Positions 989-35,715 of a DNA stretch of 36,523 nucleotides are shown here, one piece after another. The notes beneath the pieces are model-generated. The model saw only the letters and a program-made list of their open reading frames with translations, was not told where the DNA came from and made no database searches. Position numbers and translations under genes: made by a program. Source of the DNA: a virus; the IMG/VR virus record IMGVR_UViG_3300022698_000050, positions 1 to 36,523 of that record. One strand, given 5' to 3'. How positions within the stretch are numbered: the stretch's first letter is position 1; each line of letters starts with the position of its first letter.

Positions 989-2317
989 CTATTTCCATTT
1001 AGTAGTTGGAGTGATGACTGCTTTGTCAACTCTATATTTGAGTGGTAAGAGGATTCGGATTAAGTTTGATATCTCATCTTCGATGTTCTCTGTTGGGACA
1101 TATCCTAAGGCGGTTAACTTGTCACGGCTAGGTGAGTAGTGATGATCTTCAACTTCGTACCTAGGATTGTTTATTTCTTCGACAAACACATTAAGTTTGT
1201 GATCATTGACTGCTTTATCATAGACCATGAAGGCCAAGTCTTTTATTCGATAGACTGATTCGAACTGATTAAATGTCCTATATTCGCCCTTCTCAGGTGG
1301 ATTGTCTATAGCTATTTGTAAGCATTGAAGTGAATCTTTGAGTGGCAAGAACGAACGGGCCTGTCTTCCGCCACCATAGATTGACAATGGATAGTTGCAT
1401 ATTGCTTGGACACAGAATCTATTGATTGCAGTTCCGAAGTATTGGTCATAGTCGAAGCGAGTAATTGTTATGTCATCTGTGTTTTCAGTATTAAGACCGA
1501 ACACTACACCTTGCATTATATCAGTGGAACGCAAGCCCCAGTTGCGGCAAGCAAAGTCTATGTTGTAAGTGTCTTGGACTTTGCTGACGTGATAGAATGA
1601 ACCAGGCTGACGAGGGAATAGGAGACCGGCCATAGGACAGGTTGGATTTTCTAATTGCTCATGAGGAGAATGACTATCTATGGAATGATAGATGCAATCT
1701 TTCTTCAGGCACATCTTAGGAATGTCCCCTTCAGGTATGTCACAGTTAGGTGTACCATACTCACCCATCGTACCGAGTTTAATCAAGTGTGCATCAGGAC
1801 AGTTTTCATACATAGCCCAGAGTAAAGCTAACGTTCCGCAGACGTTGTTAAGTTGAGTCTGCAAAGATTCTCTGGCACTCTTCATTGACCAAGGAGCTGA
1901 CGGCTGTTCGGCCAAATGAACTATGGTATCAGGCTTGAGGAATTTAAGTACGCGGTTTAATAGATAGTAATCATGTAGGTTGAAACAAGCAACTGCGTCT
2001 ATGAAATTAGAATGTGATCTGAGGTAACGTTCTCTTTCTGTAAAGCCTTTGATTGGAGTCAGGGATTGGGTTATCTTTCTGCGGAATAAGTTGTCTAGCC
2101 CACACACTTCATAATTGTTAGAGCTGTTTAATAGCTTGGCTGCAAGTGACCAACCTATGTAGCCGTCGATTCCTAAGATTAAAACTCGATGCTTCTTTTG
2201 CTCTTTTAATTGTGCCATTCCAGGGTTTACCTTTTCTCCACAATAAATACAGCACATATTTTTATCTACTTGAATTGCCTCTCCTGGGTAGCTTATATGA
2301 CAGTGATTGCAAGTCAT
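989..2317 (-). CDS. UDP-sulfoquinovose synthase-like NAD-dependent epimerase/dehydratase with N-terminal zinc ribbon
   Basis: A 442-residue protein. The start at 2317 is preferred over 2332 because AAAGGA sits 6 nt upstream. Residues 3-26 hold a CxxC...CxxC zinc ribbon not found in standard family members. From residue 44 the sequence is an extended short-chain dehydrogenase: GIDGYIG (49-55) is the NAD-binding turn. HLAEQPSAPWSM, KLGTMGEYGTP (Thr183, Glu186) and FYHVSK (Tyr242, Lys246) match the diagnostic motifs of SQD1/SqdB, as do RFDYD..FGTA.NRFCVQA and NPR.E.E.H.Y. The known family reaction joins sulfite to UDP-glucose to give UDP-sulfoquinovose, used for sulfolipid or, in Sulfolobus (Agl3), for glycoprotein glycans. 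In a phage it more plausibly supplies a sugar for virion or cell-surface modification (inference). Substrate specificity is not provable from sequence. Confidence 0.85.
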   Translation of the reverse strand: MTCNHCHISYPGEAIQVDKNMCCIYCGEKVNPGMAQLKEQKKHRVLILGIDGYIGWSLAAKLLNSSNNYEVCGLDNLFRRKITQSLTPIKGFTERERYLRSHSNFIDAVACFNLHDYYLLNRVLKFLKPDTIVHLAEQPSAPWSMKSARESLQTQLNNVCGTLALLWAMYENCPDAHLIKLGTMGEYGTPNCDIPEGDIPKMCLKKDCIYHSIDSHSPHEQLENPTCPMAGLLFPRQPGSFYHVSKVQDTYNIDFACRNWGLRSTDIMQGVVFGLNTENTDDITITRFDYDQYFGTAINRFCVQAICNYPLSIYGGGRQARSFLPLKDSLQCLQIAIDNPPEKGEYRTFNQFESVYRIKDLAFMVYDKAVNDHKLNVFVEEINNPRYEVEDHHYSPSRDKLTALGYVPTENIEDEISNLIRILLPLKYRVDKAVITPTTKWK

Positions 2318-2335
2318 TTTAGATCCTTTCATAGA

Positions 2336-16740: not shown

Positions 16741-17583
16741 ATGCTAAAGCCTATTGACATATTAGTCACTGGTGGCGCAGGGTTTATAGGTACTAATTTA
16801 CTAGAAACTCTTTGCCAAGGTAACTTTGAATTAGTATCTGTGGACTTGTATGAAAGCACATCTGTTAAACCTCTAAATATTGAACGAGTAGTGCTTGATG
16901 TAGCTATTTTAGTACCTCGAATTAACACTAAAAAAATAGTTCATTTAGCATCTGAAACAAATATTAGGGATTCAATAAGCAATCCACGAAAAGTATTCGA
17001 CCGCAACACTATGTCAATGCTTAATGTACTAGAATTAATACGTAAAGACTATGCAGATTCCCTAGTTTTTACCTCTTCAGCTAGCGCTCAAGAAGCACTT
17101 TCGCCTTATTTGGCTTCAAAAGTTGCATGTGAAGCGCTTTGTAAATCTTACTCTATATCTTACAACCTAGACATTAAGGTTTTAAAGTTGTCAAGTGTCT
17201 ATGGCCCTCACTCTATACACAAAAAGAGTGTAATTGCTCGCTTTATAAAGGCATGTTTTAACTATGAACCACTAATAATCTACGGGTCAGGCGCTCAAGC
17301 ACGTGATTTTATCTATGTTGACGACGTAGTCGATGCAATCTTGGATGACTACGAAGGTTTTGTGTCTACAGGAACTTTAACCACAGTTAAAACTTTAGCA
17401 GAAATGGTTAGTGAGCTATCATTAAAGTATTTAAACTACTCACCTGCAATAAAGCATGATAATCCTGTACTTGGAGAGGTTATTAATCCTACCCTTCACA
17501 CTGATTTTGAAGCTAAAACTGACCTATATAAAGGACTTGACTTAACTTTCCAATGGTATAGGAGCAATTATGCAACTAAATAA
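16741..17583 (+). CDS. NAD-dependent nucleotide-sugar epimerase/dehydratase
   Basis: A 280-residue extended short-chain dehydrogenase. TGGAGFIG (10-17) binds NAD. HLASETN (68-74), Ser112-114 and Tyr123-x3-Lys127 (YLASK) supply the active site. VYGP (153-156) and GSGAQARDFIYVDD (182-195) are standard for GalE/WbpP-like UDP-sugar epimerases. It is slightly shorter than the usual 310-340. It starts 1 nt after the endolysin stop and overlaps the methyltransferase gene by 14 nt. A likely role is making the activated sugar, perhaps UDP-GalNAc or UDP-Gal, used by the glycosyltransferase encoded 0.8 kb downstream (inference). Confidence 0.8.
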   Translation: MLKPIDILVTGGAGFIGTNLLETLCQGNFELVSVDLYESTSVKPLNIERVVLDVAILVPRINTKKIVHLASETNIRDSISNPRKVFDRNTMSMLNVLELIRKDYADSLVFTSSASAQEALSPYLASKVACEALCKSYSISYNLDIKVLKLSSVYGPHSIHKKSVIARFIKACFNYEPLIIYGSGAQARDFIYVDDVVDAILDDYEGFVSTGTLTTVKTLAEMVSELSLKYLNYSPAIKHDNPVLGEVINPTLHTDFEAKTDLYKGLDLTFQWYRSNYATK

Positions 17584-18208
17584 CTGGAATAAAGAAGAAG
17601 TTGACAGGGCCGAGACTATTTGGGGAGGCAAAGTTCCTCCTTACATCGACGACATGTTTGAGTTTGCTGTGAAAGGCATGTCAAGTTGGCTTGACTTAGG
17701 TTGTGGATTCGGAAGATTTTTAAATTATTTAACGGACTGTACAACCGATCCAGATTACATCGGCTATGACTCTTCTCCAGCCATGTGTAAGCGCATCAAA
17801 GACAAATTCCCACACTACTCACCGCGCATCTTTCAGCGGCCAATCACTACAAAATTTTCAGTAAACCAAGACTCCATCATATGCAGTGCTGTCTTAATCC
17901 ATATTACCTTAAAAGAACAGGATCAGGTTCTAAGTGCTATAAAAACCGCTAATCCTAAAAAAGCTACCTTCGACATTAACTCACCATCTGAGCAATGGCT
18001 TCTATCCGGCAAACACTTCGAGCGCCGAGTAAAAGGTGAGAACAATGTCTTCAGAATGACCTGGCAATCACACTATATTTTTACTAGAAAAGTAATAAAG
18101 CTATTCACTAATCACTCAATAACTACTAAATACTACCCTCTAAAGTTCAATCCAACTAGATACAGGGTATGCTATTTTTTGGAACGCTATGACAATACGG
18201 AAGCATGA
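17570..18208 (+). CDS. SAM-dependent methyltransferase
   Basis: A 212-residue class I methyltransferase. Motif I is LDLGCGFGR (41-49). An acidic Asp67 in YIGYDSSPAM binds the SAM ribose. A later IICSAVLIHI strand matches motif post-I/IV. The position in the sugar cassette suggests O- or N-methylation of a sugar, but DNA or protein substrates are not excluded. AGGAGCAATT precedes the ATG. Palindromic repeat copy 7 lies inside the coding sequence just after motif I and is translated as FLNYLTD. Confidence 0.7.
   Translation: MQLNNWNKEEVDRAETIWGGKVPPYIDDMFEFAVKGMSSWLDLGCGFGRFLNYLTDCTTDPDYIGYDSSPAMCKRIKDKFPHYSPRIFQRPITTKFSVNQDSIICSAVLIHITLKEQDQVLSAIKTANPKKATFDINSPSEQWLLSGKHFERRVKGENNVFRMTWQSHYIFTRKVIKLFTNHSITTKYYPLKFNPTRYRVCYFLERYDNTEA
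17715..17737. repeat. palindromic repeat, copy 7 (inside methyltransferase gene)
   Basis: Core TTAAATTATTTAA with the right half-site GTCCGTTAAAT intact and the left half diverged. It is translated in frame. Confidence 0.6.
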
Positions 18209-18425
18209 GCCAGTACCTATATCAGTAATGAGTGAGTCTCCAGGAGGTGATGGCGTAACTATATGCGAGATCTTACGTAAAATCTATTGGGCAACTAACA
18301 ACGAGCAAATTAAACTAAATTGTCGAATAGCTACTTCAATGGCTAAATCTATGTCAAAGCGGTTAAGGCATTATAAGGATGAAGCTAGTTATTCTGATAG
18401 CAGATTTTGGGATAGGAGGAAATAG
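18189..18425 (+). CDS. small hypothetical protein in sugar cassette
   Basis: A 78-residue protein overlapping the methyltransferase end by 20 nt. It is Met/Ser-rich at the start, then helical and basic (LNCRIATSMAKSMSKRLRHYKDEASYSDSRFWDRRK). A GGAACG site lies before the ATG. No family recognised. Its place between two carbohydrate-modification genes suggests a helper role, unproven. Confidence 0.5.
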   Translation: MTIRKHEPVPISVMSESPGGDGVTICEILRKIYWATNNEQIKLNCRIATSMAKSMSKRLRHYKDEASYSDSRFWDRRK

Positions 18426-18427
18426 AC

Positions 18428-19429
18428 TTGAAGCTATCAATTATCATCTCTAATCGCAATGACATAGTAATGCTCAATGTCACTTTGAACAATGCAATAG
18501 AAATGATGAAGACTGTAAAAGGTGATTGTGAAATAGTTATATGCGACAATAGTGATCCTAAATTCTATGAGCTAATGCCTATTGCTTATCCAGTAGGTTG
18601 GCTGAAGGAAGGTCTAGTCCGTGTTATCAGACAAGAACAACCAGGCTTTACAACTGCTAGGATGGCCGCAGCGGAAGCGGCTAAAGGCGAGTATATCTTC
18701 TGTGTGGATTCTCACGTTCTGTTTGGCCTTAACACTTTGCGTGATTCTATTGATTTCATGGAGCGTCATAGTGACAACGAGAATCTCGGCTTTGGCCATC
18801 CCCCTATTAGATGGGCTCATCAAGGTCCAGCTGCAATAAAACATACTTTGAAAGTAAGCGACAAAGGCCTCCCTAATGGAGGATGGGATAGGGCTTATAA
18901 TACTGAACGTAGAATGTATTGGAAGTTTATGCCATGGATTTGTCGACGTGAGTGGTTCCTTAACACACTCCAAGGCTATGGCACTCACGCTTGGCATCGC
19001 ATGTCTTGGGGCGGTGCTGAGGAAATGATGCAAGTTAAGTCCCTAATGCTTGGCTACGAGAATTGGGCGATACCTACTGATCCAGTAGCTCACATAGGGC
19101 CTTACACTCCAGAGGTAATTAAAACTGGCCAATACAAGTATCGAACCTATGGAGCGCATGGTAACTTTCCACACGGCTTTGGAGTCCTCTGTGCTCGATA
19201 CATAGTAGCCGGCCCTGACCTAGGTTATCGATTGTCTAAGTCAGCCGAAGCACAATTCACAGCTCGGCACAAGATTAAGATTGACGACTATTGGGACAAA
19301 GTAGCTGAGGTATCAAAGAAAGAATTCAACTGGTTAAACGAGCGTAAGAAGTACAGTTACCTAGAACTCATTAATGAAAAGCCTTGGGAACAGGATGATA
19401 CAAGAGCCTCAACAGACGCTGCAGCGTGA
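18428..19429 (+). CDS. GT-A glycosyltransferase with polypeptide-GalNAc-transferase-like motifs
   Basis: A 333-residue glycosyltransferase with a TTG start, 8 nt after AGGAGG. The GT-A Rossmann start (KLSIIISNRND, residues 2-12) and ICDNSD (38-43) bind the nucleotide. Instead of the common DxD, the metal site reads DSH (94-96). A later block gives WGGAEE (194-199), GYENWAIPT (209-217) and AHIG (221-224). DxH, WGGE and a downstream His are the signature layout of GT27 polypeptide GalNAc-transferases, although some GT2 enzymes share pieces. The gene is flanked by sugar-modifying enzymes, and the genome encodes several Thr/Pro-rich acceptor-like proteins. O-glycosylation of phage proteins is therefore a strong hypothesis; sugar and acceptor are not proven. 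Confidence 0.75.
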   Translation: MKLSIIISNRNDIVMLNVTLNNAIEMMKTVKGDCEIVICDNSDPKFYELMPIAYPVGWLKEGLVRVIRQEQPGFTTARMAAAEAAKGEYIFCVDSHVLFGLNTLRDSIDFMERHSDNENLGFGHPPIRWAHQGPAAIKHTLKVSDKGLPNGGWDRAYNTERRMYWKFMPWICRREWFLNTLQGYGTHAWHRMSWGGAEEMMQVKSLMLGYENWAIPTDPVAHIGPYTPEVIKTGQYKYRTYGAHGNFPHGFGVLCARYIVAGPDLGYRLSKSAEAQFTARHKIKIDDYWDKVAEVSKKEFNWLNERKKYSYLELINEKPWEQDDTRASTDAAA

Positions 19430-20960
19430 CCAGACATTAGATTCAATTCTGGCTCTTTGTAGTAATGATACTAGAATGGTCGCTAAGACATTCTTTCCAG
19501 AGCGCTTCTCCTTACCATTCGCCGAGAAAGTGCATGGAAAGATATTTGAACTAATCGACTCACCTCATAACAAAATAGCTATCGCCGCGCCTCGTGGTTG
19601 GGGAAAGACTTCAATCGTCGCTTTAGCTCTAATGGCTCGTTACATCCTGTTCCACCATACTAACTTCATCTGCTACATCAACAAGTCACATGATGCGGCT
19701 AGTCTACAGACTGAAAACTTAAGACGTGAACTTGTAACTAACAAGGACATTAAAAGATTCTTCGGTGACTTTCGGCATCGAGATGTTGATGCTAAGAAAG
19801 AGTTCGATGAGGTTTTTAGTAAAAAGGCGTGGGTTGCCTATGACACGCTCGTCTGGCCACGTGGAGCTGGACAACAAGTCCGCGGGGTTCTTTTCAAGAA
19901 TGACCGTCCAGGACTTATCGTCATAGATGACCTTGAAGACCCTGAGAAGATCGAGAATGATGAGATTCGTAAGGGCTGGCATCAGTGGCTGTACGCTGAC
20001 GTGATCAAAGCAGTTCCACGCCTTCATCGACATTGGAAGATAGTTTACATCGACACTCTAAAGCACGAAGACTCAACGCTTCAAAAGTTACTGGATTCAC
20101 CTGAGTGGAAAAGTGTACGGCTTGAAGCATGCGACGACAACTTTAAATCATCAGCCCCACACTTTATGTCAGATGAGGAGATTCAAAGTGAATGGCAAGA
20201 GCATGTTAACGCTGGACAAACAGACGTGTTTTTTCGCGAGCTACGAAACCTACCGATTTCCACCAAGGACTCCGCTTTTCGTCGCGAGTACTTTAACTAT
20301 TATAGCTTGCCACCTGAAAGATCAAAGACCGACAGTGATCTTTCCATCAGTGATGCAGATATACAAGTTGATACAGATATTGAAACAGTTGTATTGCTTG
20401 ATCCTGCAAAAACCGTCAAGATACACTCTGCGGAATCTGCTATTGTAGGTGTAGGCATAGACATTAATAGCGCTAGACTATACGTCAGAGACATAGTATC
20501 AGAGAAAATGTATCCTGATGAGATCTACAATGAACTCTTTGGAATGGCAATAAGACTAGATGCAAAAGTAATAGGTGTTGAAGAAACTTCGCTGAACGAG
20601 TTTATTAAGCAGCCTATAAAGAATGAAATGTTTAAGCGTGGAAAATTCTTTGAACTCGTCTGGCTAAAAACTCGAGGTGGGATGAAAAAGGAACTACGTG
20701 TTAAGGAACTAGTCCCTTATTATCGCCTTGGCTACATTTACCATAACGCTTCGTGTCAAGGAATTAATCGTCTGGAGCAACAACTCTTAATGTTTCCAAG
20801 ATCGAAGCTCTGGGATATAATGGATTGTTTTGCCTACATTATAGAAATGCTTGAGATGGGTGAAAGATATTTCAGTCCCACTGCTCCAAAAGGCGATCCT
20901 GAAGCAGAATTCAGGGAACTTGAATACGAGGAGCCTATGGAAAACTGGAGGGTGGCATGA
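19395..20960 (+). CDS. terL: terminase large subunit
   Basis: A 521-residue packaging motor from the ATG at 19395; an in-frame ATG at 19374 is the alternative. Walker A is APRGWGKT (65-72) and Walker B LIVIDDLED (174-182). The C-terminal RNase H-like nuclease shows Asp336 in LLDPAKT, an acidic residue in IGVEET (about 393) and Asp in WDIMDCFAYI (about 489). It cuts and pumps DNA into the prohead. It overlaps the glycosyltransferase gene by 35 nt and the next gene by 4 nt. Confidence 0.9.
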   Translation: MIQEPQQTLQRDQTLDSILALCSNDTRMVAKTFFPERFSLPFAEKVHGKIFELIDSPHNKIAIAAPRGWGKTSIVALALMARYILFHHTNFICYINKSHDAASLQTENLRRELVTNKDIKRFFGDFRHRDVDAKKEFDEVFSKKAWVAYDTLVWPRGAGQQVRGVLFKNDRPGLIVIDDLEDPEKIENDEIRKGWHQWLYADVIKAVPRLHRHWKIVYIDTLKHEDSTLQKLLDSPEWKSVRLEACDDNFKSSAPHFMSDEEIQSEWQEHVNAGQTDVFFRELRNLPISTKDSAFRREYFNYYSLPPERSKTDSDLSISDADIQVDTDIETVVLLDPAKTVKIHSAESAIVGVGIDINSARLYVRDIVSEKMYPDEIYNELFGMAIRLDAKVIGVEETSLNEFIKQPIKNEMFKRGKFFELVWLKTRGGMKKELRVKELVPYYRLGYIYHNASCQGINRLEQQLLMFPRSKLWDIMDCFAYIIEMLEMGERYFSPTAPKGDPEAEFRELEYEEPMENWRVA

Positions 20961-23424: not shown

Positions 23425-25218
23425 ATGTCTAACGATTTTGACACATGGAAAGACGGTGAACCTCTTGTAGGCCCAGGGAGTGATGGCTCTTTTGATACCT
23501 GGGAAGATGGGGAACCTATAGTTAGACTTGAAGAAGGTACTACAGCGGCACCAACGACTGCAGGAGGTACCACAAGTGCTCCAACTACTGCTCCTCCTAC
23601 TACGTTGGCTCCTACAACTGTTGTTCCCTCAACAGAGGCGCCAACGACAGCTGCCCCGACTACTTTAGCGCTGACAACTTTGGCTCCAACTACACTAGAG
23701 CCAACGACGTTAGCGCCTACTACTCTTGAACCTACTACGTTGGCGCCTACGACAGAAAGTCCGACTACAAGCGCTCCTACAACTATTGCACCTACTACTC
23801 TTGCACCTACAACTTTGTTAGGAGCTAATGATTTTTCTAGTTGTGTAAGATGTAGAGCTCTTTGGCAATTCGAATCTGGTGCACTACCAGATGATACACA
23901 AAGGACTAATGATCTAACAGCTAATGGTACACCAACTGCTGATACTACTAATTATAGAGAAGGCAGTCAATCTGTAACACTTGGCTTAGATCAATACTAT
24001 AAATTAGAGAATGCCAATGTAGATGGTATGCCAATGGAGTCTGGTGATACAGATAAGTTGGTAACTATCTGTGGTTGGGTTAGGTTGACAACTATTTCTG
24101 GTTGGCAGTTCTTCTTTGGTAAAAGCGATTATTGGTGGGCTAATCGGCAAGGTCTTGGTGTCGGAGCTAATAATGGAGCTGTCCATGTTCATTGGGGAAC
24201 CGGCGTCGGTGGCCAGGATTTCTCAGTTGGTAAGACACTTGTTGCTAATAGATGGTATCATATAGGTGTAAGAGCTGATGGAGTTAACAAAAGTGGTCAT
24301 ATTAGAATATGGGACGTTACATTAGGTACACTAACAACTCTTGATTTTTATCCTTTAGCTGAGATGGGGGTTGGGTCAGATAAATTTAGCCTTGGTCTTT
24401 GGGCTGATGGTTATGGTAGTGCTTACTATGGACAGGTAGATGAAGTAGTTGTTTTTGATGCTGAGTTAACTAATAATGAAATAGATGATATTAGAAATGG
24501 TCAGTATGGGGAAGTCTGCACAACACTAGCTCCAACAACTCTGGAGTCCACAACACTAGCGCCTACAACGCTTGAACCAACAACTTTAGCACCAACAACC
24601 TTAGCTGAGACGACTGTAGCACCCACAACTATATCTCCCTCAACTCCGACACCGAGTAGTGCTCCCCCCACTACCTTGGCTCCAACAACAGTTGCAGGGA
24701 CTACAGTCGCGCCAACTACGGCTGTTGTAACAACTGGCGCGCCTACTACTCTGGCTCCAACGACTGAGCCGTCGACTACTGTGTTGCCGACAACTGTAGC
24801 TCCAAGCACAGTTACGCCTACAACACTTGCTCCTAGCACGTTAGCGCCTACTACTGAAGCGCCGACGACTTTAGAACCAACAACTGAATCGCCGACTACA
24901 GTATCGGTAACGACAGTAGTCCCAACAACTTTAGAGCCGACAACTGAAGAACCAACAACAGTAGCTCCGACTACACTAGCTCCAACAACTATTGCACCAA
25001 CAACAGTTTTACCAACAACTTTAGCACCAACGACTGTAGGGCCATCTACAGTACCACCAACGACTTTGGCACCAACTACTTATGGCCCTTACGTCTGCAC
25101 ACATGAGTTACTATCTACAATTGTAGATGAAGATGAGTTACTATCTATAGTTGTAGGTGAAGGTGAATTGATGTCAACTGTAGTAGATGAAGATGAACTC
25201 TTATCTATAATTTGCTAG
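23425..25218 (+). CDS. mucin-like Thr/Pro-rich protein with LamG domain
   Basis: A 597-residue protein. Two FDTWxDGEPxV repeats (5-15, 23-33) are followed by a Thr/Pro/Ala tract (about 39-131). Then comes a LamG/concanavalin-like jelly-roll (about 137-362: LWQFESGALPDD, ICGWVRLT, GQVDEVVVFDAELT), a second longer tract (about 366-552), and four copies of an acidic ELLS(T/I)xV repeat (558-596). There is no signal peptide, so it is probably virion attached. LamG folds bind sugars. The tracts resemble mucin acceptor sequences. Synonymous codons vary along the tracts, pointing to protein-level conservation. Probably an adhesin or fibre. Confidence 0.7.
   Translation: MSNDFDTWKDGEPLVGPGSDGSFDTWEDGEPIVRLEEGTTAAPTTAGGTTSAPTTAPPTTLAPTTVVPSTEAPTTAAPTTLALTTLAPTTLEPTTLAPTTLEPTTLAPTTESPTTSAPTTIAPTTLAPTTLLGANDFSSCVRCRALWQFESGALPDDTQRTNDLTANGTPTADTTNYREGSQSVTLGLDQYYKLENANVDGMPMESGDTDKLVTICGWVRLTTISGWQFFFGKSDYWWANRQGLGVGANNGAVHVHWGTGVGGQDFSVGKTLVANRWYHIGVRADGVNKSGHIRIWDVTLGTLTTLDFYPLAEMGVGSDKFSLGLWADGYGSAYYGQVDEVVVFDAELTNNEIDDIRNGQYGEVCTTLAPTTLESTTLAPTTLEPTTLAPTTLAETTVAPTTISPSTPTPSSAPPTTLAPTTVAGTTVAPTTAVVTTGAPTTLAPTTEPSTTVLPTTVAPSTVTPTTLAPSTLAPTTEAPTTLEPTTESPTTVSVTTVVPTTLEPTTEEPTTVAPTTLAPTTIAPTTVLPTTLAPTTVGPSTVPPTTLAPTTYGPYVCTHELLSTIVDEDELLSIVVGEGELMSTVVDEDELLSIIC
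23536..23820 (+). repeat. APTT-type coding repeat, tract 1
   Basis: About 24 imperfect (T/A)PTT(x) units read in frame. Codon choice differs between units, so this is not a recent DNA expansion. Confidence 0.8.
24520..25080 (+). repeat. APTT-type coding repeat, tract 2
   Basis: About 45 imperfect four- to five-residue units rich in Thr, Pro and Ala, with mixed synonymous codons. Confidence 0.8.
25100..25215 (+). repeat. four ~30-bp tandem coding repeats
   Basis: The C-terminal units DEDELLSIVV-like are repeated four times with few changes at protein level. Confidence 0.7.
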
Positions 25219-25226
25219 GATTAAAA

Positions 25227-25538
25227 ATGAAGATATTTGCCTTTGACACAGTGAAATTGATACTTAATACAGGAAAAGATGTATCAACTTTTACTACTAA
25301 ACTAATCAAGTATCGTGATCCAGATGGTAATGAAGGTAGATGGGTAGCTGCTATTTGTCCATCTAGCAACTTAAAAATCCAAGCTACCATTCAATTTCCT
25401 AAATCTGGAAGGTGGAAAGTTCAAGCTTATGTGTGGAAGGCTGGTCCTGAATTCTATCATGGAATGTGGGCTGAGGTTAGAGTGTATCCAGCTTTGGCCA
25501 CAACGACTACAGTACCACCAACTACACCGGCGCCGTAA
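25227..25538 (+). CDS. small beta-sandwich protein with Thr/Pro tail
   Basis: Start at 25227, preceded by AGGATTAAAA. The 103-residue product is beta-rich (IFAFDTVKLILN, GRWVAAICPSS, GRWKVQAYVWKAGPEF), like an immunoglobulin-like or carbohydrate-binding module, and ends in TTTTVPPTTPAP, a short version of the tracts in the previous protein. It overlaps no gene and is followed directly by palindromic repeat copy 9. Probably a virion surface or adhesin component; unknown. Confidence 0.55.
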   Translation: MKIFAFDTVKLILNTGKDVSTFTTKLIKYRDPDGNEGRWVAAICPSSNLKIQATIQFPKSGRWKVQAYVWKAGPEFYHGMWAEVRVYPALATTTTVPPTTPAP

Positions 25539-25576: not shown

Positions 25577-27529
25577 ATGCCTTACATAGTACACGGTGAT
25601 CCTTCATCAGGTAGAGAAAATCAGTACGAGAAGTACAACTATGACTACGACTATCCAGATGGGCTTAATTTAAAGCCTGGTTCTGAGTTGCACAAGAAAC
25701 TTGTGTCAAGAATCTGGATACGTGCTAATGAGTCACGTACTGAAATGTCCAAGCGATTTGCATCTTGGCGTGAAATAGACAGAATATTAACTGTCTATAT
25801 TCTTACTAGCGATAAGGAAAAGGCTATTAAAAAGAAAGACTCTAGAAGGCCTATATCAATAGTATTTCCTTATACCTATTCTATGCTTGAGGCATTGCTA
25901 ACTTATATGTCAATGGCTTTCTTTCAAGACCCTATATTCCAATATGAGGGTGTTGAAGATGATGATACCATAGGTGCAATGTTGCTTGAACTTTTGATTA
26001 GAGTCCAGTGCATTAAAACTAAAGTTCCTCTTGCACTTCACACTATGTTCCGTGACTCTTTCGCATACGGAATAGGACCTGTATTACCTGGGTGGAAAAC
26101 TATTTGGGGCAAGAAACCTATAAAATCTTCAGTCGTTACTGAAGGTGAATTAGGTTCATCCTCTGCACAGTATACTAATTTTATAACTGATAAACTATTC
26201 TCAGGTAACGACTTAAGTAACATCGACCCTTATATGTGGCTACCTGATGTGTCTGTCTCTAGCGTCCACATTCAAGATGGTGAATTCGTAGGCTGGGTCG
26301 AACGAGATAATTATATGAACTTGCTATCTGAAGAACAGTCTGATGATACTATCTTCAATATGAAATATGTAAAGCATGCTAAAGATAGGCGCTCACAACT
26401 ATCACGTGATCAAAGTGATAGGGAAAAGAAGCAGGGCAAAAGCTCTAAAGAATTAAGGGGTGGTACAGAATCAACCAACCCTGTTGATACCATTAAGATG
26501 TACATTAAACTAATTCCAAAAGACTGGAAACTTGGTAATAGTGAGTATCCTGAAAAGTGGTTTTTTGCTCTAACATCTGATAGCGTAATCACTAGCTGTC
26601 ATAGAGCAGAACACAATCACGGAATGTTTCCAGCTGCTGTCGCATCCCCTGAGTTTGACGGATATTCAGCTACACCTATGGGAAGACTGGAAATACTTTA
26701 TGGTCTACAAAATACTCTTGATTTTCTTTTTAATAGCCATATTGCTAATGTTCGCAAATCTATTAACGACATGCTTGTTGTTGATCCTTATTTGGTAAAT
26801 ATAGCTGACTTAGAAGACCCTAAACCTGGTAAGTTAATTAGGTTGCGGCGACCTGCTTGGGGACACGGAGTTGATAAGGTTGTACAGCAACTAGCAGTCC
26901 AAGACATCACTCGAGCTAACATTGGTGATAGTGCTTATATCACTCAGTGGATGGATCGTATCTCAGGCGCTGACCAGTCGATGCAAGGTGCACTACGTCA
27001 AGGCGGACCTGAGCGATTAACTAAAGGTGAATTTCAAGGTACTCGTGGCTCAGCTATCAGCCGCTTACAGCGACTAGCAATGCTTGTTGGGATGCAAGTA
27101 ATGCAAGATGTAGGTTCAATGTTTGCTGTACATGCTCAGCAATATATGGATAGAACAGAGTCAGTAAGAATAACTGGACGTTACGAAGAACAACTCTTAG
27201 CTCAATTTGGTAAGAGACGAATCCCAGTATCTCCTAATGATCTGTCAATAAACTATGATGTGCTTGTAAGGGATGGCTCAATACCTGGAGGTAACTTCTC
27301 TGAGTCATGGATTACTTTATTCAACATCATAGCGGGTACACCTGAATTGCATCAACAGTTTGATATATTTAGAATCTTCACCTATATAGCACAGCAAATG
27401 GGTGCTAAGAATGTAGAGGATTTCAAACGACAGGCTTCTCAAACTAATGTCCAACAGATGCCTGATGAACAGGTGATGAACCAAGTTGATAGAGGAAACT
27501 TAGTACCATTAGGAGGTGGCGCTCAGTGA
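25577..27529 (+). CDS. portal protein
   Basis: A 650-residue protein placed after TerL and before the scaffold and capsid genes, the expected order. Features are the helix-rich N-terminus (KKLVSRIWIRANESRTEMSKRF), the central TMFRDSFAYGIGPVLPGWK stretch, and the helical ISRLQRLAMLVGMQVMQDVGS region typical of podovirus-type portals. The portal forms the dodecameric DNA gate at one capsid vertex. GAGG precedes the ATG, and the next gene starts with GTG inside its stop (GTGA). Confidence rests on size, order and general pattern. Confidence 0.75.
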   Translation: MPYIVHGDPSSGRENQYEKYNYDYDYPDGLNLKPGSELHKKLVSRIWIRANESRTEMSKRFASWREIDRILTVYILTSDKEKAIKKKDSRRPISIVFPYTYSMLEALLTYMSMAFFQDPIFQYEGVEDDDTIGAMLLELLIRVQCIKTKVPLALHTMFRDSFAYGIGPVLPGWKTIWGKKPIKSSVVTEGELGSSSAQYTNFITDKLFSGNDLSNIDPYMWLPDVSVSSVHIQDGEFVGWVERDNYMNLLSEEQSDDTIFNMKYVKHAKDRRSQLSRDQSDREKKQGKSSKELRGGTESTNPVDTIKMYIKLIPKDWKLGNSEYPEKWFFALTSDSVITSCHRAEHNHGMFPAAVASPEFDGYSATPMGRLEILYGLQNTLDFLFNSHIANVRKSINDMLVVDPYLVNIADLEDPKPGKLIRLRRPAWGHGVDKVVQQLAVQDITRANIGDSAYITQWMDRISGADQSMQGALRQGGPERLTKGEFQGTRGSAISRLQRLAMLVGMQVMQDVGSMFAVHAQQYMDRTESVRITGRYEEQLLAQFGKRRIPVSPNDLSINYDVLVRDGSIPGGNFSESWITLFNIIAGTPELHQQFDIFRIFTYIAQQMGAKNVEDFKRQASQTNVQQMPDEQVMNQVDRGNLVPLGGGAQ

Positions 27530-27833: not shown

Positions 27834-28688
27834 ATGCCAGTCGATGTAAAAGATGATGTTAGTGCTATGTTGGATGCTCTTGAGGGAAAAGTTGATCAGA
27901 CAGAACCACCCTCAACTGATGCACCTGAGCTAGAACCTGAACCTGAAGATGATGTTAGGACTGAAGCCCCAACAACTGATGAACCTGAACCTGAAGGTGA
28001 GGATGATCTAGCAGATGAACCTGAAACTGATGCTCCAGTAACTGATGCTCCTGATGATGCAGATGATCGTTTATCTAAAATCATGAGGGAGAACGCTGAG
28101 CTGAAACAAAAGATCGCTGATCTTGGCAAAGGGAAGGAGGTACATACTGAAGCACCTACTACCGATCTTCCTATTTCTGAGGAAGATTTTGTAGGTGGGC
28201 TAGACCTTGATGATCTGACTAGTGACCCTACAGAGCTAAACAAAGTCCTCAACACCATATATAAGAAAGCAGTTGAAACTGTCAGAGGTGAGTACAAAGA
28301 GTACGGCACCAAAACACTTCAGCAAATTCCTAGTATGGTTAATGAGACTATTTCAACTAAACAAGCTCTGCAGGAACTATCTAAAAACTTTTACGAGCAA
28401 AACAAAGACCTGAAACCTTGGTCTAAGACTGTTGGTGTAGTGTTTGATGAACTCATTGTTGAGAACTCTGACAAACCTTACGCTGAAGTCCTTGACCTTG
28501 TAGCTAAGGAAACTAGGGAAAGGATAGGTTTGAAGAAATCTCAGCACGTCAACAAAGACGACAACGGTGATTCGGACAAGCCTCCACCGCTCCATCGTAA
28601 GAAAGGACAACGTGTGAGGCCTAAACCATCTGAGCGGAAGGGCATCTCTAGCGAAATTGATGAGATGAACGAAGCTCTTAATCGATAG
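27834..28688 (+). CDS. scaffold-like head assembly protein with acidic Thr/Pro repeats
   Basis: A 284-residue acidic, helix-rich protein between portal and capsid genes, the usual place for a scaffold. The N-terminal 75 residues are low complexity (EPEPE and TEAPTTDEP units), followed by a coiled coil (DDRLSKIMRENAELKQKIADL), another TEAPTTDLP, and a helical C-terminal half ending in a basic patch (HRKKGQRVRPKPSERK) that could bind the capsid protein. The TEAPTT units echo the mucin tracts of other virion genes. GGAGGAATAG precedes the ATG. Confidence 0.7.
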   Translation: MPVDVKDDVSAMLDALEGKVDQTEPPSTDAPELEPEPEDDVRTEAPTTDEPEPEGEDDLADEPETDAPVTDAPDDADDRLSKIMRENAELKQKIADLGKGKEVHTEAPTTDLPISEEDFVGGLDLDDLTSDPTELNKVLNTIYKKAVETVRGEYKEYGTKTLQQIPSMVNETISTKQALQELSKNFYEQNKDLKPWSKTVGVVFDELIVENSDKPYAEVLDLVAKETRERIGLKKSQHVNKDDNGDSDKPPPLHRKKGQRVRPKPSERKGISSEIDEMNEALNR

Positions 28689-28699
28689 GAGGAATTAAA

Positions 28700-29140
28700 A
28701 TGAGTCTTGAAGACAGATTTGCTCAGCATGATAAGATCGTGGTTGACAAGTACCATGATCCTGCAGCTGACTACCAAATGACAGTGCGTGACTATGTGAT
28801 GCGTCCTGACTCGAGTGAAGGAGCTATCACTCTCACCTTGCCACCTGTGGCGGAAGCTAAAGGTCGATGGTACTCGATCATTTCTCGAGGTGGACCTGGA
28901 GTTACAATCCAGGACTATGACAATGATAGTGAGTGTTGGCTTGGTGACATTGTGCTTAATAACATCTGTGACCGTTGCCTGCTTTACAGTGATGGCTTGG
29001 CATGGCATGTTATGGCTAGTCCTGGTGAATGGCCTGGGTTTGATACTACTAAAGCACCTGGAACCACCACTCCGCCTAGTACTGCTGCCCCGACCACTGT
29101 AGCTTCAACCACTGTGGCTCCGACTACTGAGCAGGCTTAA
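28700..29140 (+). CDS. capsid decoration-like protein with mucin-like tail
   Basis: A 146-residue protein directly upstream of the capsid gene, the usual place for decoration proteins. Residues 1-112 form a compact beta-rich domain (EGAITLTLPPVAEAK, RWYSIISRGG, VTIQDYDNDSECWLGDIV, LLYSDGLAWHVM). Residues 115-144 are a Thr/Pro tail (TTTPPSTAAPTTVAS, TTVAPTTEQA). If it coats the capsid, the tail would be exposed and available for glycosylation. AGGAGG is ideally placed. The assignment as decoration rests on position and fold impression. Confidence 0.6.
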   Translation: MSLEDRFAQHDKIVVDKYHDPAADYQMTVRDYVMRPDSSEGAITLTLPPVAEAKGRWYSIISRGGPGVTIQDYDNDSECWLGDIVLNNICDRCLLYSDGLAWHVMASPGEWPGFDTTKAPGTTTPPSTAAPTTVASTTVAPTTEQA

Positions 29141-29214: not shown

Positions 29215-30510
29215 ATGTTTCTTGGAATGAGAGGCACTGGCGACTGGGTCGCCAATCAACGACCTGAAAATTGGAGAGAGCAGATTCTGTATCTGTATCC
29301 TAACGGAATGGCTCCGTTGACAGCTATCCTGTCGATGATTAGTTCTGAAATGACTGATGATCCACGCTTTCATTGGTGGACTCAGGAACAGAGCTCTGTG
29401 CAGGGTGCTGTTGGTGGAATCTGGACTGATGCAGCTCAGACTACTCCTTACGTAACTGGTGGTATTGCAGGTGATACTCTGTTTGTACAAGTCACCACGA
29501 CTCTAGCTAATCGCATTAGACAGGGCCACCAAATCTTGCTTCGTGATCAGTCTGACTATGCAGTGGATGTAGTGGGTAAAATCACTAACGTTACTCGTGG
29601 TGCACTTAACTCACTGCTCGCTGTTAAACTGCTTGAAGCTGATGATAACTCGACTACTCATGATCTAAGTGATTGTGACTACTTCAAGATCATCGGTAAC
29701 ATTAATCCTGAGGGTGGCGAGATGCCTGATGCCATCGCTCTGAACCCGACTGAGGTTTACAACTACACCCAGATTTTCCGTACACCTCTGTCTATCACTC
29801 GTACGGCGAAGAAGACTCGTCTGCGAACTGGCAATCAGTATCAGAAAGCCAAATCCGAAGCGTTGGAAATGCACTCATGGGAAATGGAGCTTGCATATCT
29901 CTGGGGCATTCGCTCATCCAACATCGGAGATAATGGCAAACCTGAGCGTACCACTATGGGCGTGATTAACTTCATTCGACAGTATGCCACGGCTAATTGT
30001 GACGACTATACGTTGAATGCTACTTACTCAGGTCAGACTTGGGCGGCAGGCGGTGAGAACTGGTTGAAAGCTATGCTTGAGCAAATCTTCCGTTACGGTG
30101 CAGATTCCAAACTGTGTCTGTGTGGTTCTGGTGCACTGCTCGGAATTGATGCTTTGGCAATGGCTGGAGGTCAGGTCCAACTGCAGCCGGCTCAGAAAGT
30201 CTACGGTATGCAGATTCGTGAGTGGCTGACTCCGTTCGGCTCCATCTACATGAAGACCCATCCGCTGTTCTCTTACGATGCTACTACTCGTAATATGATG
30301 GTTATTCTGGAACCGAAAGAAATGACTTATCGCTACATCGATGACACTATGTTCTTCGGTGAGAGCGAGTCCAAGTCTCACTCTGCTGGTTATGGTCAGC
30401 GACGGATTGATGGGCTTAATGAGGAGTTCCTCACTGAGTCTGGTCTTGAATTTGGACTGCCGCAGAAATGCGCTGTCCTCAACGGTGTCGGTCTTCCTAA
30501 TGCAGTGTAG
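29215..30510 (+). CDS. major capsid protein (DUF5309-like)
   Basis: A 431-residue protein resembling the DUF5309 phage head proteins. Marks are the N-terminal MAPLTAILSMISSE, FHWWTQEQ, a central NPTEVYNYTQIFRTPLSIT, and a C-terminal VILEPKEMTYRYIDDTMFF. It forms the icosahedral shell. GC-ending codon use is higher than in neighbours, as expected for the most abundant protein. GGAGG precedes the ATG. A strong terminator follows, and palindromic repeats lie on both sides, so the gene is an isolated unit within the operon. Confidence 0.85.
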   Translation: MFLGMRGTGDWVANQRPENWREQILYLYPNGMAPLTAILSMISSEMTDDPRFHWWTQEQSSVQGAVGGIWTDAAQTTPYVTGGIAGDTLFVQVTTTLANRIRQGHQILLRDQSDYAVDVVGKITNVTRGALNSLLAVKLLEADDNSTTHDLSDCDYFKIIGNINPEGGEMPDAIALNPTEVYNYTQIFRTPLSITRTAKKTRLRTGNQYQKAKSEALEMHSWEMELAYLWGIRSSNIGDNGKPERTTMGVINFIRQYATANCDDYTLNATYSGQTWAAGGENWLKAMLEQIFRYGADSKLCLCGSGALLGIDALAMAGGQVQLQPAQKVYGMQIREWLTPFGSIYMKTHPLFSYDATTRNMMVILEPKEMTYRYIDDTMFFGESESKSHSAGYGQRRIDGLNEEFLTESGLEFGLPQKCAVLNGVGLPNAV

Positions 30511-34476: not shown

Positions 34477-35715
34477 ATGTCAACAGCACCGCCTACAACA
34501 GCTCCGCCTAGTACAGTAGCACCTACAACGGTAGCACCTACAACTTTGGCACCTACCACAGTCGCACCTACTACTGTACCTGACATTACCTTAACTGTTG
34601 ATCCAATAGAGATAATAGTAGCTCCACCTTATGCTGTTTGGCACTATTGGCCACCAGCTCCAGTCAATCCTGGATTGGACCAAGAGTATGACTTCGGAGA
34701 TATTCCAATAGAGCTTGACTTTACTGTTCTTGGAAGTCCTGGTAATGTAGGTATTGAAGTAAGTCCTATTGAAGTAGAGATTATTCCAGCTAGCGATGGA
34801 TTCACTTATGGTCGAGTAATTACTCCTGATCCAATTAACATAGTTATCTCCATACCTAGTATTGACGTCTTGCTTGATTATGAAGAATGTAACTGGGTAT
34901 GGTGGTCTAAGATTGGTGAGTTGGATTTTACCATAGATGAGAGCAATATAGCTGGAAAGCGTCCTATGGATTGGAGAGGATGTGTCTGGCATGTTGCTCG
35001 ACTTGGTGACAAGGTAGGAATCTATGGAGATAATGGAGTTAGTTTTATCAGGCCGAGCGGTATCCACTTTGGACTTGATACTATTTATCGCATAGGGCTA
35101 AAGAACAAAGGTGCTTTTGTTGATGGAGAGAAGTACCATTTCTTCATTGATAAGCTTAATCAGTTATGCCAAGTTGACAAGGCATTCAAGATTCTCGATT
35201 ACAAAGAGTTTCTGTCAACTATGAGTACCACTATTTTGTCGCTCGATGAAGAGCAAGAATTACTTTATATCACAGATGGCACTTATGGATATGTTTATAG
35301 TATTAAGGATGAAAGTTTCGGAACTGCTTCTGTGAATATAACTGGAATTGGTGCTCAGAATTCTCTACTTTATGTAACAAGTGATGGTGCAATAGATACG
35401 CCTAAGTTTGAAATCTGTACTGATATATATGACTTAGGTACACGCAAACCTAAGACAGTTCAACGAGTTGAACTTGGCACTGACGTTGGTGAGTTCTTGC
35501 ATGTGTCACTTGATTACAGAAATAACTATCGTGAAGAGTTTAAGCAGATAGGTTGGTTCATAGCTAATCACGATGGTAAAGCTTATCCTAAGTGTTATGG
35601 AGTTGAATTTCGCATTAGGGTCAAAGCATCTATTAGGGAATACTTGGAACTAGATTATATAAAAGTAAGAGGACATATTCATGGGTATTCGTACCTTGAT
35701 ACAGCAGAGGGGTAA
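34477..35715 (+). CDS. tail protein with N-terminal mucin tract and C-terminal propeller half
   Basis: A 412-residue protein. Residues 2-36 are a Thr/Pro tract (APTTVAPTTLAPTT units). About 37-140 has repeated PIEI/PINI beta segments. From about 150, NWVWWSKIGELDFT, MDWRGCVWHVARLGDKVGIYGDNGV and GLDTIYRIGLKNKGA form a distinct beta-propeller-like unit. This looks like the missing second half of the protein encoded at 31892-32392. GAGGATAGACTA precedes the ATG. Confidence 0.6.
   Translation: MSTAPPTTAPPSTVAPTTVAPTTLAPTTVAPTTVPDITLTVDPIEIIVAPPYAVWHYWPPAPVNPGLDQEYDFGDIPIELDFTVLGSPGNVGIEVSPIEVEIIPASDGFTYGRVITPDPINIVISIPSIDVLLDYEECNWVWWSKIGELDFTIDESNIAGKRPMDWRGCVWHVARLGDKVGIYGDNGVSFIRPSGIHFGLDTIYRIGLKNKGAFVDGEKYHFFIDKLNQLCQVDKAFKILDYKEFLSTMSTTILSLDEEQELLYITDGTYGYVYSIKDESFGTASVNITGIGAQNSLLYVTSDGAIDTPKFEICTDIYDLGTRKPKTVQRVELGTDVGEFLHVSLDYRNNYREEFKQIGWFIANHDGKAYPKCYGVEFRIRVKASIREYLELDYIKVRGHIHGYSYLDTAEG

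Follow-up and report, generated by a model that had tools for sequence, protein, structure and literature searches.

Mucin-type O-glycosylation by enzymes of the GT27 fold is regarded as essentially an animal and protist trait. In GalNAc-T2, the Mn2+ ion is bound by Asp224, His226 and His359, Trp331 is catalytic, and Phe361, Phe280 and Trp282 hold Pro-x-Pro acceptors (PMC4432651). The snail GalNAc-T touches the 4- and 6-OH groups of GalNAc through Glu362 and Gly360, which correspond to Glu334 and Gly332 of GalNAc-T2; Gly308/309 are positioned at the N-acetyl group (PMC6994419). Among phages, glycosyltransferases of glycosylated mycobacteriophages are reported to decorate virion proteins (Freeman et al. 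2023, as cited in PMC13313380). Archaeal protein N-glycans obtain their sulfoquinovose through the synthase Agl3 (PMC4388408), and a UDP-sulfoquinovose synthase has been described in a Mu-like Cariaco Basin virus (PMC7785012).

In this study, one 36.5 kb IMG/VR virus record from a tailed phage of uncultured bacteria (the window, meaning the whole stretch analysed) was examined. We believed, with a probability of about 0.7, that its glycosyltransferase is a phage polypeptide O-glycosyltransferase which decorates the Thr/Pro tails of the phage's own virion proteins, probably with a sugar other than GalNAc. Sequence, conservation, predicted fold and co-occurrence were observed or computed, and from these we infer the activity, the linkage, the donor and the modification of the tails in virions. 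The features of the window are listed in Table 1.

Table 1. Position and strand of the features considered in the window.
Feature	Position	Strand	Remark
UDP-sulfoquinovose-synthase-like SDR enzyme	989..2332	-	Thr145, Met146, Glu148, Tyr149, Tyr182, Lys186 kept
NAD-dependent nucleotide-sugar epimerase/dehydratase	16741..17583	+	relatives found only in enzyme-bearing contigs
SAM-dependent methyltransferase	17570..18208	+	relatives found only in enzyme-bearing contigs
GT-A glycosyltransferase	18428..19429	+	333 aa, GT27-like fold, no lectin domain
D94-S95-H96 codons	18707..18715	+	predicted Mn2+ site; GalNAc-T2 D224-S-H226
W194-G-G-A-E-E199 codons	19007..19024	+	GalNAc-T2 W331-G-G-E334
A221-H222-I-G224 codons	19088..19099	+	H222 predicted third Mn2+ ligand; GalNAc-T2 H359
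Terminase large subunit	19374..20960	+	phylogenetic anchor
Candidate acceptor, 597 aa	23425..25218	+	LamG-like domain flanked by two APTT arrays (41 PTT)
Candidate acceptor, small protein	25212..25538	+	TTTTVPPTTPAP tail; family seen only in enzyme-bearing contigs
Portal	25577..27529
Candidate acceptor, scaffold-like protein	27834..28688	+	TEAPTTDEP repeats
Candidate acceptor, small head protein	28700..29140	+	beside major capsid gene; tail TTKAPGTTTPPSTAAPTTVASTTVAPTTEQA
Major capsid protein	29215..30510		3' of small head protein gene
Candidate acceptor, structural-region protein	34477..35715	+	APTT tract at N-terminus

The glycosyltransferase gene and its relatives

The glycosyltransferase ORF starts with TTG, and an AGGAGG box (18414-18419) lies 8 bases 5' of the start. 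The gene is located directly 5' of the terminase large subunit gene and 3' of the epimerase/dehydratase and methyltransferase genes. The listed terminase ORF overlaps its 3' end by 56 bases (19374-19429); the true terminase start is probably later, because the alignment of most terminase relatives begins only at residue 8-22. No transmembrane segment was found in the 333 aa of the glycosyltransferase, which indicates a soluble protein.

The first-pass annotation had read DSH at residues 94-96, WGGAEE at 194-199 and AHIG at 221-224, and all three motifs are at these residues. About 60 relatives (29-85% identity) were found in IMG/VR scans, the majority in phages whose terminase is similar. In an alignment of 44 viral relatives, D94, H96, W194, G195, G196, H222 and G224 were invariant and S95 was kept in 43. 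Because of this invariance, the motifs cannot be attributed to chance. E199, the second acidic residue of WGGAEE, is variable. The consensus of the family reads WGG[GA][DE], and a second subfamily reads WGGGD(M/L) where the others read WGGAE. DSH had been described as standing in place of DxD. The motif is there, but it is no departure, as DxH is the normal state in GT27: DSH is literally present in the solved GalNAc-T2, T10 and PGANT9, and T4 has DCH.

A tblastn search of annotated phage records with the glycosyltransferase gave no match, PHROGs has no family for it, and a search for papers on phage GT27 enzymes found none. Three bacterial matches from a genome contig search were rejected as relatives and are generic GT2 proteins. 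Four contigs (G042, G044, G046 and L053) carry a second glycosyltransferase copy in tandem (195-245 bits; 1687-2745 and 2768-3889 in L053), and the L053 copy has DSH and WGGGD. The second enzyme could add a second sugar or act on a different acceptor. Four relatives without the enzyme (G020, G021, G022 and G024) have a 700 aa GT2-containing protein instead (PF00535 E 1e-21 to 1e-26), and Thr tracts were present in none of them.

Fold and active site compared with GT27

The annotation had compared the enzyme with mucin-type GalNAc-transferases, and profile searches answered in two ways. Pfam and NCBIfam recognised only a generic GT2 N-terminal half: PF00535 (Glycos_transf_2) matched residues 4-115 only, with 44.5 bits against a gathering score of 23.3, and did so in 19/19 members of an alignment of the family. 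By sequence alone, the enzyme can be placed in the GT2 clan only. The generic GT2 profile matched this half strongly, and the similarity ended at about residue 120. PF11397 (GT60, GlcNAc polypeptide transferase) gave no hit at E 1, and no positive control gave one either. A PDB profile search found GalNAc-T9, T10, T12, T3, T7, T4 and T1, with the T10 match extending to the distal His; chondroitin synthase, TarS and TarP were also among the best matches.

An AlphaFold2 model was built without templates from 44 sequences (pLDDT 91.5, pTM 0.91); an earlier model from 6 sequences (pLDDT 49) was left out of the analysis. The 29 best PDB entries listed were all GT27 GalNAc-transferases (Z 24.2-26.3), which aligned over 269-283 residues at rmsd 2.6-3.3 and 14-19% identity and covered model residues 1-322. 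The best entry outside GT27 was a GT2 enzyme with Z 18.8 over 184 residues. Foldseek also ranked GT27 first (E about 1e-12). Therefore, with Z 24-26 against 18.8 for the next family, the predicted fold is a GT-A domain of GT27 topology and the metal site is GT27-like. The fold and catalytic residues proposed by the annotation are supported by the clear gap to other families, and by the residue mapping below.

In its own numbering, the GalNAc-T2 PDB chain reads D224-S-H226, W331-G-G-E334, H359 and F361. In hhalign, W194 pairs with W331 and H222 with H359, in a weak alignment to the GT27 C-terminal half (E 0.0024, probability 12) for which both profiles were shallow. In both proteins, the His lies 28 positions beyond the Trp. 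The DxH, the gatekeeper Trp and the distal His are therefore all found, with D94/H96/W194/H222 corresponding to D224/H226/W331/H359. Glu334 aligns with A/G197 of the phage family and Ala307-Gly308-Gly309 with K166-[GF]167-M168 (K in 42/44), so the WGGE motif and the AGG sugar pocket (307-309) are absent. The Phe361 position (metal His + 2) is the invariant Gly224, and the acceptor groove is therefore not identical in detail; the 280/282 region was aligned without confidence. The C-terminal ricin-type lectin domain is also missing from the 333 aa protein, whose fold ends at about residue 322.

The mapping indicates that the catalytic machinery looks GT27-like and that the donor and acceptor details differ. 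Membership of GT27 itself did not hold on the lectin domain and the WGGE/AGG features. From sequence and model, we class these proteins as a GT27-like, GT2-clan family of putative viral polypeptide O-glycosyltransferases. The enzyme would be a cytosolic, Mn2+-dependent GT-A protein that uses a UDP-sugar to glycosylate the Thr side chain directly, probably with retention, as in GT27. D94, H96 and H222 would hold Mn2+-UDP and W194 would be the gatekeeper Trp, as in the GalNAc-transferase catalytic domain.

An ordinary GT2-clan enzyme could act on host surface polysaccharide or lipid-carrier sugars, for receptor modification or superinfection exclusion, and the Thr tails would then be unrelated flexible linkers inherited in the lineage. 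The PF00535-only result in Pfam, the strong generic GT2 match of the N-terminal half, the chondroitin synthase, TarS and TarP matches and the few independent changes on the terminase tree (see below) agree with this explanation. We consider it unlikely, because the structural match over the whole domain clearly favours GT27, the GT2 similarity does not reach beyond about residue 120, the protein has no transmembrane segment, and the tails of orthologous head proteins vary together with the enzyme.

Thr/Pro tails and their co-occurrence with the enzyme

The APTT tracts noted in the first pass are real: ORF 23425-25218 contains 26 APTT, and four other ORFs have shorter tracts. Five structural-region proteins of the window thus carry Thr/Pro tracts, and this region has the order portal, scaffold-like protein, small head protein and major capsid protein. 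Pro and Thr of the tracts are each encoded by all four codons. This indicates that the peptide is conserved rather than a DNA repeat, and it argues against fresh slippage copying. The peptide type in the small head protein is a PGTxxPTTxAPTT-like tail. Such tails, with the related APTT tracts on the five proteins, would be the acceptors.

Terminase relatives were compared, and a genome was counted as lacking the enzyme when the upstream region was present and the enzyme absent. The Thr/Pro tail of the small head protein was found in 22/23 genomes with the enzyme and 0/6 without (Fisher 1.5e-5, kinship uncorrected). In all six enzyme-less genomes, this protein ends in unrelated Thr-poor sequence. 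The scaffold-like orthologues have STEAPSTEVP-type tracts in many or most enzyme-bearing genomes, with none in some of them, and are acidic or Lys-rich in enzyme-less genomes. Among contigs that extend 5 kb or more past the terminase on its downstream side, tracts (at least 20 Thr/Ser/Pro in 40 residues) were present in 19/22 with the enzyme versus 3/12 without (p 6e-4). The terminase tree shows at least two losses of the enzyme, each accompanied by loss of the tail. With only two independent joint losses, kinship stays a partial explanation and a sign test cannot reach significance.

The genome G013 (L163-L165) has the enzyme and a small head protein without a tail, and a poly-Thr protein gene adjoins its enzyme gene. 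This protein (41237-43717) has 827 aa with (T)10AGPTTTTT repeats, and the adjoining divergent glycosyltransferase (40080-41030) sits downstream of the terminase. A reverse scan from PTTLAPTT gave 15 further multi-match contigs without the enzyme, mostly fragments of 4-14 kb; the two largest, likewise without the enzyme, measure 24 and 28 kb and may come from other phages.

The complete genome of Desulfofustis phage MD01 (OP947158.1) is the closest named one and has neither the enzyme, the synthase-like gene, a tract nor the tail protein. Identity is 46% for the terminase and 53% for the capsid, and its scaffold orthologue is acidic. MD01 is assigned to Desulfofustis sp. PB-SRB1, a sulfate reducer; CRISPR spacers were the basis for assigning its host to a Desulfofustis bacterium (PMC10370329). 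This hints that the window phages may infect similar bacteria, where sulfite is a metabolic intermediate.

Comparative genomics thus supports the annotation's proposal that Thr/Pro tracts of the same phage are the likely acceptor. Enzyme presence tracks Thr-rich tails on phage head proteins, and the enzyme therefore probably sugars the virus particle. Phages also encode DNA glycosyltransferases, and the gene adjoins the terminase, as might be expected if a phage DNA base or a small molecule were modified and the tails co-occurred by common ancestry. This is very improbable: no base-hydroxymethylation gene was recognised among the scanned window proteins, the structural matches are protein-modifying enzymes, and the tail co-variation would be left unexplained.

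The synthase-like gene, the donor sugar and known systems

The synthase-like gene lies on the opposite strand, far from the glycosyltransferase gene. Its protein matched NF041015 (E 2.6e-122) and SQD1 (1i24, E 4e-90), with a score of 408.5 bits against the NF041015 equivalog cut-off of 575. The SDR catalytic residues Thr145, Tyr182 and Lys186 are intact in 19/19 phage synthase-like proteins, and Arg101 is replaced by Pro in all 19; in Agl3, R101A is inactivating (PMC4388408). The product may accordingly be UDP-sulfoquinovose or a related compound whose synthesis does not involve sulfite. No match was found by tblastn of the protein against annotated phage records. An N-terminal extension with CxxC..CxxC (CNHC, CIYC) sets the window copy apart from the 18 relatives compared, in which it is absent.

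The gene was found in 19 enzyme-bearing contigs and in none of the enzyme-less contigs. We predicted, before the result was known, that tailed contigs ending before the enzyme locus would carry it, and 4/4 did (G069, G072, G080 and G081); in the same check it was absent from untailed contigs. The matches in G080 and G081 read through one in-frame TGA. Among contigs of at least 30 kb, the gene was present in 22/25 tailed versus 0/6 untailed (p 1e-4, kinship uncorrected), suggesting an unusual donor. The rebuilt sugar pocket and the co-occurrence of the synthase-like gene with the glycosyltransferase make UDP-GalNAc an improbable donor.

The UDP-GalNAc donor implied by the first reading was not sustained, as the GalNAc-contacting residues are replaced and the accompanying sugar-nucleotide gene resembles UDP-sulfoquinovose synthase. 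A true polypeptide GalNAc-transferase would use host UDP-GalNAc, or UDP-GalNAc made from UDP-GlcNAc by the neighbouring epimerase (16741-17583). The GT27 fold with DSH...W...H and the 4-epimerase-like SDR gene in the same cassette fit such an enzyme. We think it distinctly improbable, since K166-F/G167-M168 and A/G197 replace Ala307-Gly308-Gly309 and Glu334, residues located at GalNAc or touching it (PMC6994419), and since the epimerase is missing from many enzyme-bearing genomes, whereas the synthase-like gene is in most.

For the polypeptide O-glycosyltransferase that we prefer, one may speculate that the pocket, with its lysine and without Glu334, would favour a negatively charged sugar. 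A tentative and rather doubtful extension is that the capsid carries a sugar coat O-linked directly to Thr of mucin-like tails, the sugar being sulfoquinovose or a different 6-modified one derived from UDP-glucose, with the phage's own synthase-like enzyme as the donor source and the GT27-fold transferase attaching it. We know of no earlier description of such a protein modification.

A minimal viral GT27-like enzyme with genetically linked acceptor tails would offer an uncomplicated way of glycosylating Thr directly in bacteria. The enzyme/tail pair would serve as a metagenome marker of glycosylated virions, and it would point the way to an uncommon protein glycan, which may be sulfonated. 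The phage enzyme resembles GT27 (GalNAc-T2, T10 and PGANT9; PDB 2ffu, 2d7i and 6e4q) in the predicted fold of the whole catalytic domain (Z 24-26), the DxH metal site, the catalytic Trp and the distal His at the 28-residue spacing, and probably in Thr/Pro-rich acceptors. It differs in its low identity (14-19%), in the missing lectin domain, in the lack of the conserved Glu334, AGG and Phe361, and in being viral and cytosolic. With GT2 enzymes (K4CP chondroitin synthase 2z86, TarS 5tze and TarP 6h1j), it shares the clan and the N-terminal nucleotide-binding half, but the similarity ends near residue 120 and the structural match is Z 18.8 or less. With glycosylated mycobacteriophages, the comparison covers the reported decoration of virion proteins by phage-encoded glycosyltransferases. 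The 989-2332 protein has TMGEYGTPN and YxxxK in common with SQD1/Agl3 (PDB 1i24; PMC4388408) and departs from them at Arg101 and in its below-cut-off NCBIfam score. Compared with the N-glycan use of sulfoquinovose with Agl3, an O-linked use would be new.
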